64,000 nt of DNA. It comes from Gammaproteobacteria bacterium. Lineage in GTDB: Bacteria > Pseudomonadota > Gammaproteobacteria > GRL18. The notes beneath the pieces were generated by a model. The model saw only the letters and a program-made list of their open reading frames with translations. It had not been told where the DNA came from and ran no database searches. Shown piece by piece: positions 4,598-13,132 of the stretch. The stretch's first letter is position 1. Every line of letters begins with the position of its first letter. The position numbers and the translations under genes are program-made. Where the stretch lies: NCBI GenBank assembly GCA_016744995.1, contig JADGDG010000001.1, positions 164,011 through 228,010 of the forward strand. Direction: 5' to 3'.

Positions 4598-5389
4598 CTA
4601 AACATCTTTTAGAGAATCTCTTATTTGCAGAAATTCATCCAGATGTCCAAAAAAAATATCAACGAGAGCCGGCTCAAAATGCTGGCCTCTTTCTTCCTTA
4701 AATAAATTAAATATTTTCTCATCATCCCAGGCTGGTTTGTATACTCTGGCACTGCCTAGTGCATCAAACACATCTGCTAACGCGGTAATGCGCCCATAGA
4801 TATGTATATCTTCACCAGAAGTGGCATTGGGATACCCCTTACCATTCCATTTTTCATGATGTTCATAGGCCACAATTGATGCCATTTTCAGTAGTGAACG
4901 ATTTGAATATTTTAACATGTCATAACCCAGCTGGGCATGCTCTTTCATCTTTTCAAATTCTTCTGGGGTAAAACGAGCAGGTTTGTTTAAAATCGAGTCA
5001 GGAATAGCAACTTTGCCTATATCGTGCATAGGTGAGGCCTGCTTGAGCATTTCACATTCTTTTTCTGGAAGCCCATAATACCTTGCCAATATATAAGTGT
5101 ATTCTGCTACACGTTTCACATGATTGCCGGTTTCTTTGGAACGACTTTCACCAATTGCCCCCATAGTAAGTACAACTTCACGTTGAGTTTCTTCGATTTC
5201 AGCACTTAAATCTTTTACTTCTTGCAGTTTTGCTTGCAGTTCGTCATATTCTTTTCTTTGCCGTTTGTCACTGCGTGCCATAATTTTGCTCTGGCGTTTT
5301 AGATCTTTGGCGAGCTTGTCAATTGTTTTGGTAAAACTTGCTTTTAAATCATTCAATTCTCTGAGTAAATTATCTTCTGGTGCTTCCAT
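4598..5389 (-). CDS. HD-GYP domain protein closing the Sia-like operon
   Basis: A 263-residue cytoplasmic protein. Residues about 5-75 form a charged coiled coil, followed by an HD-GYP domain with NHVKRVAEY, PMHDIGKVAIP and HHEKWNGKGYP. The metal-binding HD and HH residues are present, but the GYP loop is the divergent WNGKGYP rather than xDGSGYP, so hydrolysis of cyclic-di-GMP is likely but not certain. It starts 5 nt after the SiaC-like gene, so it is surely translated from the same message. In Pseudomonas the fourth gene of the siaABCD operon is a diguanylate cyclase activated by SiaC; here a phosphodiesterase-type domain takes that place. Confidence 0.88.
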   Translation of the reverse strand: MEAPEDNLLRELNDLKASFTKTIDKLAKDLKRQSKIMARSDKRQRKEYDELQAKLQEVKDLSAEIEETQREVVLTMGAIGESRSKETGNHVKRVAEYTYILARYYGLPEKECEMLKQASPMHDIGKVAIPDSILNKPARFTPEEFEKMKEHAQLGYDMLKYSNRSLLKMASIVAYEHHEKWNGKGYPNATSGEDIHIYGRITALADVFDALGSARVYKPAWDDEKIFNLFKEERGQHFEPALVDIFFGHLDEFLQIRDSLKDV

Positions 5390-5394
5390 AATTA

Positions 5395-5772
5395 TTATTT
5401 ACCCACTAAATTAATAACAAGGTTCTCAAAGTCTTCAATAAAATCTTCCCCTGCTTCTAAAGCACTTTCATTTTCTTCATCATAGATCCAGTTGACCTCA
5501 ACGTGATGTTTGTCTTTTTGTTCATCCAGCACATCAAAAAAATCAAAAAACAGTTTGGAACTACTGGAATTAAAGTAAATAATTTCCATATTGACTACGG
5601 TTTTATTTTTAGCCTCACCATTAAAATAAGCCGTTACCCAGTCCATAATCGGTTGGTAAAAGTCAAAGGTATTTTCAGGATAAGATTTACCTACCATAGA
5701 AATCACACCTGATTCAGCATTCATATTAATTTCTGGTGTATATTGAGTACCTTCTAAAAATAAGTTTTCCAT
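5395..5772 (-). CDS. siaC: SiaC-like regulatory phosphoprotein (DUF1987)
   Basis: A 125-residue single-domain protein of the DUF1987/SiaC family. In Pseudomonas aeruginosa, SiaC is phosphorylated by SiaB, dephosphorylated by SiaA, and when unmodified binds and activates the cyclase SiaD. The conserved segment around YFNSSSSKLFFDFFDVL (about residues 65-81) is the serine-rich stretch where the phospho-site of the family lies; which residue is used here I cannot tell. The C-terminus is very acidic. It begins 4 nt after the SiaB-like gene and is followed after 5 nt by the HD-GYP gene, its probable partner. Confidence 0.87.
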   Translation of the reverse strand: MENLFLEGTQYTPEINMNAESGVISMVGKSYPENTFDFYQPIMDWVTAYFNGEAKNKTVVNMEIIYFNSSSSKLFFDFFDVLDEQKDKHHVEVNWIYDEENESALEAGEDFIEDFENLVINLVGK

Positions 5773-5776
5773 TTGC

Positions 5777-6331
5777 TTAATCCTTTACATTATGTATAGT
5801 TGCTTTTAAAGAAAAATATTGGGTTTCATCATTAATATCTGTAAAATCACATTCCATTGAATCACATCGTTTAGCTATTTCTACAAAGCCAATACCTGCG
5901 CCTTTTTCATGTTTTTCCCGGCCGCTTTTACGAAGCTCTCTATAAAGCAATTTGAGAGCCGCTTTATCCAGCGACAAAACCTGTTTTATTTTTGGAATAA
6001 TTTTTTCTGAATCATTTATATTTACTATGTTCCTGGAAAAGACATAATACTCATTAGCGTCTTTATCAAGCCCAACAATAATTAAGCCCTTGGAATCTAT
6101 GGCATTGCCAGACATATTTGATTTTTTTGAATAGTTCATCATATTCTGAGACAATTCTATAAATATTGTTAACAAGTTATGGGCCACTTTTTTATTTAAA
6201 TCATGTGTTTTTGATTCTTTTTCCAGAGCTTCCGTCATGCCGACAATAAGTGCCTGTGTTAATAGCCCTCCATAGGTTAAAAATATAATTCCATCATCAT
6301 CTAATATTGTTTCAAGTTGTGATATTTGCAC
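5777..6331 (-). CDS. siaB: SiaB-like protein kinase (DUF6272)
   Basis: A 184-residue protein resembling SiaB, a kinase of the GHKL ATPase fold that phosphorylates SiaC in the manner of anti-sigma-factor kinases such as SpoIIAB. ELSQNMMNYSKKS (about 59-71) fits the N-box and GAGIGFVEIAKRC (about 144-156) the glycine-rich lid. It begins 66 nt after the SpoIIE phosphatase gene and ends 4 nt before the SiaC-like gene, reproducing the phosphatase-kinase-substrate order of the sia operon. The enzymatic role is inferred from family and order. Confidence 0.85.
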   Translation of the reverse strand: MQISQLETILDDDGIIFLTYGGLLTQALIVGMTEALEKESKTHDLNKKVAHNLLTIFIELSQNMMNYSKKSNMSGNAIDSKGLIIVGLDKDANEYYVFSRNIVNINDSEKIIPKIKQVLSLDKAALKLLYRELRKSGREKHEKGAGIGFVEIAKRCDSMECDFTDINDETQYFSLKATIHNVKD

Positions 6332-6397
6332 TTGTAACTCCTTATTTTATTGTCTGACATATATTTTATACTTGATATTACACACTATAGTATTAGT

Positions 6398-9300
6398 TTA
6401 AACTCTTAACCCAAGAACGGTAACATCATCATTACGCTCTTCATCTGCCTGGTATTGGCGTAATTCTGAAATAAGTATTTTTTTCTGTTCCGCAAAAGTA
6501 AGCTTCTGATTATCTATTAGTAATTTAGTAAAACGCTTTTTGCCAAAGGGAAATCCTTTTGTTCCGCCAGTTTGATCCAGATAACCATCGGATGTAAGAT
6601 AAACCGTCGTCTCTTCACTGACATCAATGGTATGTTCTGTAAATTCATAATCAGGATCAGATTTCTTATAGCCTATGGAATGTCTATTGCCTTTAATGGT
6701 TTTAAGTGTGTTATTCTGAATCAGAAAAAGTGTAGATTCAGCACCAGAAAATTTGAGCTGCTTTTGTTTTTTGTTGTAATATAAAATACTGCCATCAAAA
6801 CCTGCATTGGAAACTGAATCAACGGTTTCTTGTTGTAAAAGATTTTTAATGCTTTTGTTAAATATCATTAATAATTTTGCTGGGCTGACACTGTCCTTAC
6901 AATTTAAAATATGAGCAATAACCTGTCTTTCGACTGCTTTGACGAGCATGGTTACAAAAGCACCTGGAACACCATGCCCAGTACAATCTATCACCATTAA
7001 TAAAAGTTCATCCTTATGGCGCAGTTTGTCTGCAAAAAAGATATCTCCTCCAACTATATCTTTTGGCTGCCATATAGAAAAGAAATCGTGAAAATAATCT
7101 TTAAAAATTTCATTATCAGGTATTATTGCACTTTGAATAAGAGAGGCATATTCAATTGATTCCCGGGTGTGTTGGTGTATGATTTCAACTTCTTTTTTTG
7201 CTTCTGATAAATCAGCGGTTCTTTCTGCTATTTTTTTCTCAAGATTAGCGGTAAGATCTTCCACTTCTTTTTTTGATGTAATGTCATGTCTTATAGCACT
7301 ATAACCAACAACATTATTTTTTAAATCATAATCTGGACTAATAACTGCATCAACCCAGAAAAACCCACCTGTTTTTTTCAAGTTTTTAATTTCTCCGCGC
7401 CATTGTTTGCCTGATTTAATGGTAGACCATAAGTCTGTATAAGTACTTTGGGGCATGTCTGGATGTCGGAATATGTTTTGTGGTTTACCGATTAACTCAC
7501 TTTCACTATAACCGCTTACATTACATAGTGCTTCACTTGCATAGATTATTATGCCATCAATATTTGTTTTACTGGCAATAACATTTTTATCAAAAGAAGA
7601 AAGTAATTTGGTTATTTCTATGGTTTTTTTATCGACCATAGATTTTAGTTTTCTATTATTCCATACAACAAAGAGTAGAATGATAATAATTACACCAGAT
7701 ATTTGCATTACTAACATCCAGTTCGTCTGTTTTACTACTTTTACACTGGCCCATTTATCATGAACCACATCATAAGTTGAGCCTGGAACCGACTGCAATA
7801 ATTTGTTTAAGATATCTAATAAAGTTTTATCATCTTTTCTGACAGCAATACTGAGATTGTATTTTATATCTGTATATCCAGCGACCTGTAAGTTTTTCAG
7901 CCCATATTTACTTTTATAATAGGAAAAGACAGGTACTGTGGTAATAGTGAAATAAACACTACCATCGATGACCTCCTGTAGTGCTTCCTGATGATTTTTT
8001 GTTTCTTTAATTTTTATGTAGGGATATTTCTTTTTTAATCGCGATATCAGCCCCGAACTTTTTTTTCTTGACATGGTTTTACTGGTTATGGACTTGAGGT
8101 TTCCAGTTAGTGGTTTATCAGCCGTTGTAATAATTGCCAGATCATATTTTAAATAGGGGCTTGTAAAGTTGGCGTATTTTTTTCTTTCTTCGGTTGTAAT
8201 CGCACTGGGCAGGATATCACATTTTTTTTCTTCCAGGAATTTTTGTGATTGCTTCCATGTAGATGTCTTTACATAGTTGTATTCTAAATCTAATTGTTCC
8301 TGTATGATTTTTAAAATATCAATTGATATACCTTTTTCCAACTCATTTTCTCTAAACTCTATCGGTTCCCAATTAGGATTGGTACAGATATTTAAAGTTT
8401 TTTTATTTTTAAGGTATTGGCGCTGATTGATTGAAAGTATATTTTTATCTTTTAAGTCTTTACCTGCCCAGTCTTTATCTCTTAATAATGATAATTCTTT
8501 TTTAGGAATAACTTTAAAGGCTTTATCAATAATAGAGGCAAGTTCAGGGTATTTATGATTTATGCCAATAGATGCTTCTCCATAGCGAGAATATATTTCT
8601 TTAACAACTTTCAAATCGTAGGCTGTTAATGTGTCTTTATTAATAAATTCAGCAACCATTGCACTCGCTTCTTTTGAAGAGGAAAGACTCATATAAATGT
8701 CATCAATATTGTTTTTGTCTATAATTTTTGCATCAGGGGATCTCTCTGAGATTAAATTATGAGTAATAGAATGAGCTTCTAAATAAATAGTTTTATTATT
8801 TAAATCTTCTAGAAATTTTATGTTTAATTCATCTTTTCGTGTAACAAGGTAGGAGGGAGTATAATTATAAGCTGGCGTATAGTAAAAGTAGTTCTCTTCC
8901 CTTGCTTTGCTCCAGCTAAGTCCCATAATTCCATGTAATTCATCACCTTTGACGGCTCTGCTATAACCATCTCCCCATGTGGAATATTTTACTGGAACCA
9001 GATTGGTTCCGCTGTATTTATTGATCAGTTTTAAAACTTCTGTGTGCAGACTATTACTATTACTATCATGAGGCCAATATTCCATCATTCCTATTTTTGT
9101 GATTAGATTTTTATTGAGCCATTCTTCTTCCTGTTTTGATAACTGTATTTTTATGTCATTTTTAAAATAAATGATTAGTTTACCAATGAGCTTATTTTTA
9201 TAATAAATATCTGACTCGTCTTTTTTGAACTGTGTAAGCCATTGTGGAATGGGCTGATTATAGATAAACTGCTTATTTTCCCTGAAAAAAGTAAAAAATA

Positions 9301-9559
9301 TTTCGGTTTCATTGCTTTCCTGTATGCTCAGTGCTTTAACTTCTGAATTTTCTATTAAGATATTCTTGAGTAAATTGGGCAGTTCTTCATTATCAATATG
9401 GTATAGTGAGGCGGCACTAAGGTCAGCAATTTGCTGCGTTATTTTAACTGAGGCAGAAACAGAGAAACTGAACAGACACAGGCAAAAAGAACTTATAAAC
9501 AGCAATGATTTATTCATCAAAATTTTTAAACAGATAGTATCATTCATAATATTGATCAT
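6398..9559 (-). CDS. SiaA-like SpoIIE/PP2C phosphatase with two periplasmic binding-protein domains and PAS
   Basis: A 1053-residue membrane phosphatase, probably antagonising the SiaB-like kinase. After a signal or anchor segment come two SBP_bac_3-like domains (about 145-375 and 390-605), a transmembrane helix (about 613-637), a PAS domain (about 670-763, with FRHPDMP), a coiled coil, and a SpoIIE domain with GGDIFF (near 838), DCTGHGVPGAF (856-866) and NDDVTVLGLRV at the C-terminus. The aspartates needed for metal binding are present. The first ATG overlaps the end of the preceding gene by 20 nt and has AAGAG before it; ATG codons at 9547 and 9517 are alternatives, the last giving a cleaner signal peptide. 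The double binding-protein module differs from the sensor region of Pseudomonas SiaA and suggests amino-acid-like ligands. Confidence 0.87.
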   Translation of the reverse strand: MINIMNDTICLKILMNKSLLFISSFCLCLFSFSVSASVKITQQIADLSAASLYHIDNEELPNLLKNILIENSEVKALSIQESNETEIFFTFFRENKQFIYNQPIPQWLTQFKKDESDIYYKNKLIGKLIIYFKNDIKIQLSKQEEEWLNKNLITKIGMMEYWPHDSNSNSLHTEVLKLINKYSGTNLVPVKYSTWGDGYSRAVKGDELHGIMGLSWSKAREENYFYYTPAYNYTPSYLVTRKDELNIKFLEDLNNKTIYLEAHSITHNLISERSPDAKIIDKNNIDDIYMSLSSSKEASAMVAEFINKDTLTAYDLKVVKEIYSRYGEASIGINHKYPELASIIDKAFKVIPKKELSLLRDKDWAGKDLKDKNILSINQRQYLKNKKTLNICTNPNWEPIEFRENELEKGISIDILKIIQEQLDLEYNYVKTSTWKQSQKFLEEKKCDILPSAITTEERKKYANFTSPYLKYDLAIITTADKPLTGNLKSITSKTMSRKKSSGLISRLKKKYPYIKIKETKNHQEALQEVIDGSVYFTITTVPVFSYYKSKYGLKNLQVAGYTDIKYNLSIAVRKDDKTLLDILNKLLQSVPGSTYDVVHDKWASVKVVKQTNWMLVMQISGVIIIILLFVVWNNRKLKSMVDKKTIEITKLLSSFDKNVIASKTNIDGIIIYASEALCNVSGYSESELIGKPQNIFRHPDMPQSTYTDLWSTIKSGKQWRGEIKNLKKTGGFFWVDAVISPDYDLKNNVVGYSAIRHDITSKKEVEDLTANLEKKIAERTADLSEAKKEVEIIHQHTRESIEYASLIQSAIIPDNEIFKDYFHDFFSIWQPKDIVGGDIFFADKLRHKDELLLMVIDCTGHGVPGAFVTMLVKAVERQVIAHILNCKDSVSPAKLLMIFNKSIKNLLQQETVDSVSNAGFDGSILYYNKKQKQLKFSGAESTLFLIQNNTLKTIKGNRHSIGYKKSDPDYEFTEHTIDVSEETTVYLTSDGYLDQTGGTKGFPFGKKRFTKLLIDNQKLTFAEQKKILISELRQYQADEERNDDVTVLGLRV

Positions 9560-10367
9560 ATAGCTCTTGAGTTTTTCCGCTATTTACTAATTCTTTAAGT
9601 GCCTGTTGAAATTTATAAGCAATTGAATTTTTTGAGAGTAATTGAGGATAATTTAGAATATTAATTGCTTGTGAATTATTGAAGTCAGGATTATCCTGCT
9701 GCTTATAATGAATCGATTTTTTTGAGAAGCCTAAATAGAGCGGTTTTATTCCACCACAGCAGTCTGAATGAATTTTAATATTATCAACTTTATTTTTATT
9801 TTTCTTAATGTAATACTCTATACTTGATTTATTGTAAATATAAAAGTCTCCCCGTTTTTTTTGTATCAGAGAAATTGCTTTATCAATTGTCATTTCACGT
9901 ACTTTATGAATGGTGACCCCCATGAGTTTATTATCAGTATCTACAGAGCCCAGTGCTGTTAACAGGGTATAACCCTCAAGCTGTTTTATGTCTGTAATAT
10001 TTTTCATGGTATTTAAGGAAATACCAACATCACCACCGGGTAAGCCATTTTCCATAAAAAAAACATTCTCAGCACGTTTAAGGCTAAAACTAAAGCCAGG
10101 ATAAAAATCAATTACTCCTTGATTTAAACGTTTTAAAATACGTTTTTTGGGGCCTCTTTCTATTTTTAATTGGCAGCCTATTTTATCTGCAGCAAGGCTA
10201 TAGAGATGTTGATACAAGCCTGAATCAGAGGTTTGTCGGGAAATTAATGGCATGCGCTCGCTAGAACGGTAACCCATTGTTAATGTGCATGCCATAGCAG
10301 TGCAGTGAAAAAACAAACTTACTACAAAGAGCACACTATAGCCTGACTTGATGTGTTTTTGAGACAT
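9540..10367 (-). CDS. Periplasmic solute-binding protein (SBP_bac_3-like), first gene of the Sia-like operon
   Basis: A 275-residue exported protein with a signal peptide ending near AMA (about 25-27) and a full-length bacterial extracellular solute-binding fold, ending ELVNSGKTQELYDQYYE. No ABC permease or ATPase is linked to it. Its end overlaps the start of the SpoIIE phosphatase gene, whose sensor region contains the same kind of domain. I infer that it delivers or competes for the phosphatase ligand, or that it is a stand-alone paralogue of the sensor. A possible -10 TATACT lies at 10407-10412 on the minus strand, with the palindrome CGCGATCGCG at 10420-10429 just upstream. Confidence 0.82.
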   Translation of the reverse strand: MSQKHIKSGYSVLFVVSLFFHCTAMACTLTMGYRSSERMPLISRQTSDSGLYQHLYSLAADKIGCQLKIERGPKKRILKRLNQGVIDFYPGFSFSLKRAENVFFMENGLPGGDVGISLNTMKNITDIKQLEGYTLLTALGSVDTDNKLMGVTIHKVREMTIDKAISLIQKKRGDFYIYNKSSIEYYIKKNKNKVDNIKIHSDCCGGIKPLYLGFSKKSIHYKQQDNPDFNNSQAINILNYPQLLSKNSIAYKFQQALKELVNSGKTQELYDQYYE

Positions 10368-10631: not shown

Positions 10632-11495
10632 CTAGTCTGAACTTGTCACCAATTCTATAGATTGTTTGCCCATTTGTTCCATCGCTAAGATTTTATTCAA
10701 ATAAGAAACCATATGATCGGTAGAAACAGACACAATCAACGTTAATTCACCTTCTTTCATACCTTCATAAAATTTTCTGGATATTGTCCAGTAATGTTCC
10801 AGGCGGCTATAAATAAATTCCTGCTCTTCATTTTTAAATTTATGAGAACCAATATCTTCCAGACCTTTTTCAAATTTTTTCACTTCTTCTGCTAGTTTCT
10901 TTAACATTGCTTCATCATTAAAGCCGACCTGATAAGCGATATAAAATTTGCTAATCCGCTGGAGTAGTAACTGCTGATGCAAGATATCATTCTGAAGTGA
11001 GTAATTGACTCCAGATTTTTCAGATAAATAATCAATAACTGACTGAGAAGCTTCATAAACGGTTTCACTATAATCAACAATTTGAGAAGCATTATCTTCT
11101 GAGTACTGTTCATTTAAAAGCTCTTTAGAATCCATATGAATATGACTCAGGTATTGTAATAAATTTTTCTTTTCAGAATCATTTATATTAGCTAATAGAG
11201 CATTTAGACTCTTATCAATCACCCCTACTGATCGTACAGTTTCAATACCAGCTTTATTTTCACGAAGACCTTGCGAAATATAAAAATAATTTTTGGCAAT
11301 GATCTGAGATTGAATTTGAAGTTCCTTTGCATACTTTAAAAGCTTCGATTCATCAGTAATTACTTGTACTGGTTGCGCTGTATTTTTTTCAATTACAATG
11401 GTTCTTAATCCAGACGATTCTGCAAAGGCAGTCATAGGGAAAAGAAAAAATATTATCATCATAAGAGAGAAAAACAGAGTTAATCCATTATTCAT
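10632..11495 (-). CDS. Exported PilJ_N-like protein, divergent third copy
   Basis: A 287-residue protein with a signal peptide (about 1-25) and an all-helical body related to its upstream neighbour at 11529-12314. Both share DYSETxxEAS, FYIAYQxGF and a C-terminal STD motif. The two hallmark PilJ_N segments are eroded: QIQSQIIAKNYF (about 60-71) and HQQLLLQRISKFY (173-185) replace the GRQRMLSQRI form of the siblings. There is no transmembrane or signalling output domain after the signal peptide, so it must act in the periplasm. It is the last gene of the three-gene run. Function is unknown; binding of a small anion, as PilJ_N-type domains of NarX/NarQ do, is only a possibility. Confidence 0.75.
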   Translation of the reverse strand: MNNGLTLFFSLMMIIFFLFPMTAFAESSGLRTIVIEKNTAQPVQVITDESKLLKYAKELQIQSQIIAKNYFYISQGLRENKAGIETVRSVGVIDKSLNALLANINDSEKKNLLQYLSHIHMDSKELLNEQYSEDNASQIVDYSETVYEASQSVIDYLSEKSGVNYSLQNDILHQQLLLQRISKFYIAYQVGFNDEAMLKKLAEEVKKFEKGLEDIGSHKFKNEEQEFIYSRLEHYWTISRKFYEGMKEGELTLIVSVSTDHMVSYLNKILAMEQMGKQSIELVTSSD

Positions 11496-11528
11496 GATAT
11501 CTGTACTCCTCAGTTATTTAGCTAAAAA

Positions 11529-12314
11529 TTATTTTTTATCAAGCTCTACATACATTTTTGTCACATGGTTCATGGTTACCATAATTTTATCTGTACTGGA
11601 AAGAACGATAACAGGTAAACCACCCCGTTCGACATCCTTATAAAACTTTCTAACAACATTCCATAGTCTGGCAACCTCATTCAGATCTTTTTTGATTTGA
11701 TTTGTACTGCGTTTATCCTTTGCCAGTATTGCATGGGTTTGTTCAAATTCATTCATTGCTTTATTAAGCTGGTTAACCGTATTAATATCTTTAAATCCTA
11801 ATTGATAGGCAATATAAAATTTGGCAATTCGTTGGGTTAACATTCTTTGGCGACCAGACAAGTTAACGAGCTTATCAGCTTTATTTTTAGTAGTTCCTTC
11901 GATGCGCAAAACAATATCATGACTGGCCTCAAGTAATGTCTCACTATAATCAAGCATTAATGAGCCATTGTCTTTATTAAAAGGTTCTTTAGCCAGGGGC
12001 GGCAACTCATCTTTACTCATTTCAATAAAAACCAGCAGATCCTGTACTTTCTCATCACTGATATTACTTGAAAGTATCTGGTAGTTTTTATTAAAGAGGG
12101 CAATACTATCCATAAGTTGTTTGCGTGTTTTTTCCGGACGAACCTGTTTACCATAAAAGAAATAGGCCTTGGCAATTTTTTGTGACAGCATTCGCTGCAT
12201 GCCGGCAATATTAATCAGTTCTGCTGTGGTATATTTTTTTGCTGCAAATGCTCCCTGAAATAATATTGAAAATAAAATGATACTGAAAATTGTAAACTTT
12301 ATTAGTCTGTTCAT
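11529..12314 (-). CDS. Exported PilJ_N domain protein, second copy
   Basis: A 261-residue exported protein with a signal peptide (about 1-24) and two PilJ_N-type repeats. The first has GMQRMLSQKI at 38-47 and the second GRQRMLTQRI at 154-163, each beginning a long helix. This domain is known from the N-termini of type IV pilus chemotaxis receptors and nitrate sensors, but here it is free in the periplasm with no output domain. It lies 26 nt after the first copy and 33 nt before the third, all in one direction, so the three are probably one transcription unit under the riboswitch upstream of the first. Confidence 0.83.
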   Translation of the reverse strand: MNRLIKFTIFSIILFSILFQGAFAAKKYTTAELINIAGMQRMLSQKIAKAYFFYGKQVRPEKTRKQLMDSIALFNKNYQILSSNISDEKVQDLLVFIEMSKDELPPLAKEPFNKDNGSLMLDYSETLLEASHDIVLRIEGTTKNKADKLVNLSGRQRMLTQRIAKFYIAYQLGFKDINTVNQLNKAMNEFEQTHAILAKDKRSTNQIKKDLNEVARLWNVVRKFYKDVERGGLPVIVLSSTDKIMVTMNHVTKMYVELDKK

Positions 12315-12340
12315 TGTTTTTACCTTAAAACAGTTTATTT

Positions 12341-13132
12341 TTAATTCGCTGATTTTGAATAAAGATCGGTAATTCTATCCATTTCTTTAAGTATTTTATC
12401 AGCTGATTTAGATATAATTGTGGGAGCATACCTCCCTGATTTTGAACGTCCCATTACTTCAAACCACTTGAATGACTTTTTCACCTTAGCAAGACCAACA
12501 CTAATTTCAGGTGTATTAATACTGGATTTAAGCAATGTATCCTGAGCTTTGCTAAACTCATCCATTGAATCATTTAATTTATTTATAAATTCTGGATCGT
12601 CAAGACCCCAAACCTTTAGCATATAAAGCGCAGCCATTCTTTGTGACAGCATTCTTTGGCGACCAGAAATATTTATTATCTCGGATGATCCCTTATTAGA
12701 TGCTTTTGTTATCATATTGGTTGTTTTATGGCTGGCAGACAGGAGGGCATCCAGCGCTTTTTGTAGTTTAGCTATTTTTTCTTTTTCAGGTTTTGTTTGT
12801 ATAATTTTTTTTATTGGATGCCATAATTGTTCAACGTCATTCAGGCTTTTGTTAACATCTGAATTAATCTGTAAGGCTTTAAGATTTTGATATGCTTCAT
12901 CAAAAATCTGGATATTATGCTGCAAATCTTTAGCGGGATCACCATAGTCATTTCCCATACCAACCATGGCATAATTTTTTAACATGCGTTGTGTCAACAT
13001 TCTTTGCTTTCCCGCAATATTAATTGCTTCATTAATGCTTATCTGGGCATAAATGGGGTGAACGCTAAAGAAGCAGATGAATAATACGATAAATGATCGA
13101 TGATTTTGAGGTAATTTATTGTTAAGGTTCAT
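12341..13132 (-). CDS. Exported PilJ_N domain protein, first copy, behind a c-di-GMP riboswitch
   Basis: A 263-residue exported protein. A signal peptide (about 1-30) precedes two PilJ_N-type repeats with GKQRMLTQRM at 41-50 and GRQRMLSQRM at 157-166. No transmembrane helix or signalling domain follows. It is first of three tandem paralogues. Its leader of nearly 200 nt contains a cyclic-di-GMP-I riboswitch (13242-13330) and a hairpin with a T-run (13147-13170) just before the start codon, so its expression should respond to the nucleotide made and broken down by the neighbouring gene products. Confidence 0.84.
   Translation of the reverse strand: MNLNNKLPQNHRSFIVLFICFFSVHPIYAQISINEAINIAGKQRMLTQRMLKNYAMVGMGNDYGDPAKDLQHNIQIFDEAYQNLKALQINSDVNKSLNDVEQLWHPIKKIIQTKPEKEKIAKLQKALDALLSASHKTTNMITKASNKGSSEIINISGRQRMLSQRMAALYMLKVWGLDDPEFINKLNDSMDEFSKAQDTLLKSSINTPEISVGLAKVKKSFKWFEVMGRSKSGRYAPTIISKSADKILKEMDRITDLYSKSAN

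Follow-up and report, generated by a model that had tools for sequence, protein, structure and literature searches.

We report that a five-gene cluster at positions 4598-10367 of the window (the whole stretch of 64,000 nucleotides that was analysed) is best explained as a SiaABC partner switch with a c-di-GMP phosphodiesterase as its output. SiaC is proposed to dock on the stalk of an HD-GYP protein and to activate it, and the biofilm signal c-di-GMP would fall when SiaA is active; we give this reading a probability of roughly 0.64. The evidence obtained here comprises gene content, active-site and phosphosite residues, a docking-motif match, the spread of the arrangement, and the linkage of the motif to SiaC. 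Phosphorylation of SiaC, its binding, and the ensuing activation are inferred for this operon by analogy with Pseudomonas aeruginosa SiaABCD.

Survey of SiaC loci

The gene after SiaC was surveyed in the loci of 80 named contigs and in class, order, and phylum samples. In the pattern scan for SiaC, the family-wide alignment was too divergent; a four-sequence alignment worked.

Organization of the operon

An earlier note on this DNA had read a phosphatase, a SiaB-like gene, and a SiaC-like gene followed by an HD-GYP gene, and the minus-strand open reading frames and family matches agree with it (Table 1). The families found over the cluster with Pfam and NCBIfam were SBP_bac_3, SpoIIE PP2C, PAS, DUF6272/SiaB_fam_kinase, SiaC PF09345, and HD_5. 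The gene in the siaD position matched HD_5 and had no GGDEF match in Pfam or NCBIfam, as expected of an HD-GYP protein and not of a diguanylate cyclase. The kinase passed the cut-off of NF038262 for the SiaB family.

Table 1. Genes and features of the cluster, with their positions in the window.
Feature	Position	Strand	Evidence
Free periplasmic solute-binding protein (SBP_bac_3) of 275 aa, leading the cluster	9540..10367	-	PF00497 31.0 bits, cut-off 26.4
SiaA-like sensor phosphatase, 1053 aa: signal peptide, two binding-protein domains (the first tentative), one membrane helix, PAS, PP2C	6398..9559	-	
Possible first, divergent binding-protein-like domain of SiaA, about aa 144-360	8482..9130	-	phmmer 7ejg E 3.8e-8, BvgS E 1.6e-4
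Second binding-protein domain of SiaA, aa 389-604	7748..8395	-	PF00497 E 5.6e-27
PAS domain of SiaA, about aa 665-767	7259..7567	-	PF08447, PF13426
PP2C catalytic domain of SiaA, aa 830-1053; VGGD, DCTGHG, TSDG, NDD motifs	6401..7072	-	PF07228
SiaB-family kinase, 184 aa, GTG start	5777..6331	-	NF038262 129.9 bits, cut-off 85; P. aeruginosa SiaB 6kko_A E 1.9e-14
SiaC-family phosphoprotein, 125 aa	5395..5772	-	PF09345 139.1 bits, cut-off 24.5; P. aeruginosa SiaC 6kko E 6.7e-20
Predicted phosphorylation site Ser69 of SiaC (Y-F-N-S-S)	5566..5568	-	Alignment: equivalent of Thr68 in P. aeruginosa SiaC
Putative HD-GYP phosphodiesterase, 263 aa	4598..5389	-	PF13487 105.5 bits; PmGH 4mcw E 7.4e-58
Helical stalk at the N terminus of the HD-GYP protein, aa 4-82	5144..5380	-	One helix, 4-82, in the AF2 model
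Predicted SiaC-docking motif KIMARSDKRQ, aa 35-44, aligned to SiaD residues 77-86	5258..5287	-	Contacts from PMC8457831
HD-GYP catalytic domain, aa 82-242	4664..5146	-	Residues shared with PmGH, invariant in 37-sequence alignment

The PP2C domain of SiaA matches the catalytic structure of P. aeruginosa SiaA (6k4e, E 3e-40). The input domains attributed to SiaA in the earlier note were only partly recovered: Pfam found the PAS and the second binding-protein domain, a Pfam search of about aa 144-360 gave no match to the first, and phmmer hits faintly suggest a divergent domain there. Whether the free binding protein and SiaA are translationally coupled hinges on where SiaA starts. From the first ATG, SiaA overlaps the binding-protein gene by 20 nt, whereas a start at M15, which gives the better signal-peptide fit, lies 22 nt past the stop of that gene. 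A promoter scan gave no excess over shuffled sequences. Upstream of the operon (window 10632-13132) are three tandem exported proteins; PilJ N-terminal domains occur in two of them, and the third matches no family.

Predicted phosphosite of SiaC and active site of the HD-GYP protein

SiaC matches the structures 6kko and 7e6g, lies above the PF09345 cut-off, and has a phosphorylatable Ser69 in a Y-x-N-S/T-S loop. Ser or Thr occupies the phosphosite in 107 of 107 SiaC-effector pairs; on the SiaC side of these pairs, Y65, N67, and S/T68 are constant and D79, E/D110, and D/E114 nearly so.

The HD-GYP protein consists of a bare stalk and a catalytic domain in which HD, HHE..GYP, and the metal ligands are all present. 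Its metal and GYP residues (E86, H90, H122, D123, K126, H151, H177, H178, G185-Y186-P187, and D206) are invariant across 37 aligned sequences and common to PmGH of Persephonella marina (4MCW). The AF2 model (pLDDT 88.9) superposes on 4mcw with Z 30.6 and 41% identity over 230 aligned model residues. PmGH differs in that a domain of its own precedes the helix at the N terminus. Judging from these residues and the model, the HD-GYP protein should be an active phosphodiesterase.

A predicted SiaD-type docking motif on the stalk

In 7E6G, SiaC Thr68 reaches in between the stalk helices of SiaD, where it bonds S82 and Q86; SiaC N67, S69, and Y65 contact SiaD D83 and Q86, and acidic SiaC residues contact SiaD R74, K77, R80, and R84 (PMC8457831). 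The SiaD chain of 7E6G contains RLEKVARISDRYQ and RLERIARISDGFQ, and the HD-GYP stalk contains KRQSKIMARSDKRQRKEYDELQ, in which S, D, and Q line up with those of SiaD. The stalk thus has the motif expected of SiaC-regulated outputs at the positions of SiaD residues 77-86: S82, D83, and Q86 are kept as S40, D41, and Q44, and K77 and V78 become K and I. R80 and I81 are replaced by A and R, so part of the SiaC-stalk interface must differ from that of SiaD. On this alignment, SiaC is predicted to bind the HD-GYP stalk.

Across the effector side of the 107 pairs, D83 is found in all, and S82 and Q/E86 are mostly retained. Covariation between SiaC and the stalk contact positions was overall not above chance (P = 0.15). 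Single charge patterns (SiaC 29 versus stalk 89-91) track effector class, possibly through shared descent. In a read-through SiaC-stalk model (L042, stop codons as G), SiaC and the stalk were each confident, with a pTM of 0.61.

Distribution of the motif among SiaC loci

A short HD-GYP gene lies directly 3' of SiaC in 39 non-redundant loci from Campylobacterota and Pseudomonadota. With such a recurrence, which the earlier note had proposed to look for, the SiaC-HD-GYP adjacency is far beyond chance. The docking motif occurs on 89 of 101 output-domain genes directly downstream of SiaC and on 12 of 1225 other ORFs of the same loci; the motif expression behind these counts was set after examples had been seen, but at positions defined by the crystal structure. 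It is also found in 5/29 genes directly after SiaC that have no recognised output domain, and more motif genes stand one or two genes further along the same operons. By Pfam, the motif-bearing proteins include GGDEF proteins, HD-GYP proteins of about 263, 450, and 690 aa, HisKA/HATPase kinases, CheA-like proteins, class III nucleotide cyclases (L208, L217, and L238), and a PP2C protein (L019). The SiaA inputs of the surveyed loci are as diverse as the outputs.

A DNA pattern for KIMxRSDKRQ matched only this genome among 398 Pseudomonadota genomes, which makes the HD-GYP type a rare one in this set. Mapped on the SiaC tree, the output label changes 20 times with coarse classes and 23 times with fine ones, compared with 63 when fine labels are shuffled; output type is therefore inherited yet repeatedly exchanged, with the caveat that the count is soft because the tree is poorly resolved.

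Several individual loci were recorded alongside the survey. At a Sulfurimonas SiaC locus (L041:5048-5719), an HD-GYP protein and a small GGDEF protein both carry docking motifs; one SiaC may therefore act on opposing enzymes. In the sister genome G218, a PP2C phosphatase with the docking-like RLVRMSDRNE directly follows a third SiaC (L019:5991-7001), possibly a cascade of one partner switch onto another. Histidine kinases at L181:3847-5541 (KIIRQSDRHQ) and L178:4328-6427 (KIVHQSDRQQ) carry the motif with no adjacent siaC and are possible orphan SiaC targets. Genes of 431-500 aa that start MIY.....K.YLK directly follow SiaC at L082:2463-3758, L101:8389-9891, and L092:8380-9831; these three lack the docking motif, and the two that were scanned had no Pfam match.

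The sister genome G218 has two damaged copies of the sia operon (L018 and L178) with reciprocal gene losses. In one copy SiaA, as far as the contig reaches, and SiaC are retained, while siaB is broken and only the ends of the HD-GYP gene are left. In the other, SiaB and HD-GYP are retained, SiaA is broken, and siaC is absent. The pattern fits one joint function divided over two loci, with the reservation that both copies lie at MAG contig ends and share the same siaA breakpoint.

Motif carriers and a second SiaABC set in the same genome

Among 21 HD-GYP proteins examined in this genome, the motif stands in the N-terminal region of one and of none of the 20 others; a match in the HD-GYP protein L244 was rejected as it falls only within the catalytic domain. 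The motif was on 0 of the 51 GGDEF proteins examined, out of 79 in the genome. Among the hits of a genome-wide DNA pattern for K-type motifs, the HD-GYP and CheA-like genes were the sole plausible targets; KVSQISDKSQ (G000 C43) was discarded since it sits at the end of another protein.

A second SiaA-SiaB-SiaC set is located at L003:7455-14282 (G000 C35, about 616954-623781). Two free binding proteins precede it (5900-7453), and it is followed by a CheA-like Hpt-HATPase protein, which carries KIIRISDRQQ, and then by two CheY-like proteins and a GGDEF protein. Judging from the motif, this set apparently drives the CheA-like kinase and not a SiaD. Given this pairing and the wide spread of the HD-GYP version, the replacement of SiaD by HD-GYP is a single instance of a SiaC that serves more than one kind of output. 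The earlier reading of an HD-GYP protein in the SiaD position of a SiaABC-like operon holds, and the SiaD-type contact signature on the stalk adds support to it; the swap, however, is not a one-off.

Proposed mechanism and alternatives

In the proposed mechanism, a ligand or membrane signal sensed by the binding-protein and PAS domains of SiaA would set PP2C activity, perhaps with the free binding protein assisting. SiaB would phosphorylate SiaC at Ser69 and SiaA would dephosphorylate it. With helices 2 and 3 and its Ser69 face, unphosphorylated SiaC would then bind the SD-x-x-Q motif on the dimeric stalk at the N terminus of the HD-GYP protein. As each HD-GYP stalk has a single motif, against two in SiaD, the complex should be 2:2. 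The active HD-GYP dimer would thereby be stabilised, and c-di-GMP would therefore fall when SiaA is active, opposite to Pseudomonas SiaABCD; SiaB would reverse the switch. The direction assigned here, activation and not inhibition, is taken solely from the SiaD precedent.

It is this direction that invites the opposite proposal, that docked unphosphorylated SiaC keeps the HD-GYP protein inactive and that SiaA activity raises c-di-GMP as in Pseudomonas. The docking motif is silent on sign, and a constant physiological direction would account for easy exchange of cyclase and phosphodiesterase. We nevertheless consider it unlikely: SiaC activates SiaD through dimer stabilisation (PMC8457831), and the stalk helix of the HD-GYP protein overlaps the one running into the PmGH catalytic domain, which makes a SiaD-like mode of activation possible.

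The output itself could also be misassigned. If the HD-GYP protein were degenerate or had another substrate, SiaC docking would lead to binding or cGAMP hydrolysis and not to c-di-GMP turnover, as the related V-cGAP3 (5z7c), a cGAMP enzyme, might suggest. Every metal and GYP residue is retained and the nearest solved relative, PmGH, is a c-di-GMP enzyme, which makes this quite improbable. Least credible is mere neighbourhood, with the HD-GYP protein a bystander and SiaC acting on another target. The covariation null would suit it. Against it stand the adjacency in many families of two phyla with gaps mostly <40 bp, the tie between motif and SiaC linkage, and the search for a SiaD-type cyclase bound by SiaC elsewhere in the genome, which the earlier note had named as evidence that would count against its reading; this search returned none among the 51/79 GGDEF proteins or with the K-type DNA pattern.

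Beyond the phosphodiesterase output proposed here, we think it probable, with a little less assurance, that SiaC is a general detachable input subunit. It would be phospho-switchable and dock on a portable coiled-coil motif of at least six output classes (diguanylate cyclases, HD-GYP phosphodiesterases, histidine kinases, CheA-like kinases, class III nucleotide cyclases, and PP2C phosphatases), sometimes with two outputs per operon. Ser/Thr partner switching would then form a layer upstream of second-messenger and two-component signalling. If so, the output of a Sia switch could be read from sequence, and the motif would predict SiaC-controlled enzymes, including orphans far from siaC. Gene exchange behind one helix could invert the sign of c-di-GMP control.

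Comparison with known systems

DUF1987 proteins have been suggested to modulate adjacent proteins (PMC8457831), and the general-subunit proposal would partly answer the question, left open there, of their role outside Pseudomonas. In the open-access literature, with subscription papers mostly outside the search, no report was found of an HD-GYP output with a SiaC-contact motif, nor a description of a docking helix or motif common to other enzyme classes. A 2022 mBio survey of Campylobacterota proposed, from neighbourhoods, STAS control of a c-di-GMP turnover enzyme; its PP2C / stas_STYK / STAS / c-di-GMP enzyme clusters are probably identical operons, although its section on this cluster mentions neither an HD-GYP output nor a docking motif or mapped contacts (PMC9239204). 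The HptB-HsbR-HsbA-HsbD and BgrSTUWV partner switches, as far as their citation in PMC8457831 describes them, likewise place a c-di-GMP enzyme under a STAS-type protein, but with STAS proteins from other families and a cyclase output.

The closest characterised system is P. aeruginosa SiaABCD (6KKO, 7E6G; PMC8457831, PMC7647112). The NCBIfam equivalog cut-offs for SiaABCD proper were missed by SiaA (251.9/700 bits), SiaB (92.3/225), and SiaC (108.9/150). Both systems have a PP2C phosphatase, a SiaB kinase, and a SiaC phosphoprotein in the same gene order, and an output enzyme with an SD-x-x-Q stalk motif. They differ in output (GGDEF in P. aeruginosa versus HD-GYP here), phosphosite (Thr versus Ser), and number of docking motifs (two versus one), and the SiaA input of the present operon, unlike that of P. 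aeruginosa, is built of binding-protein and PAS domains.
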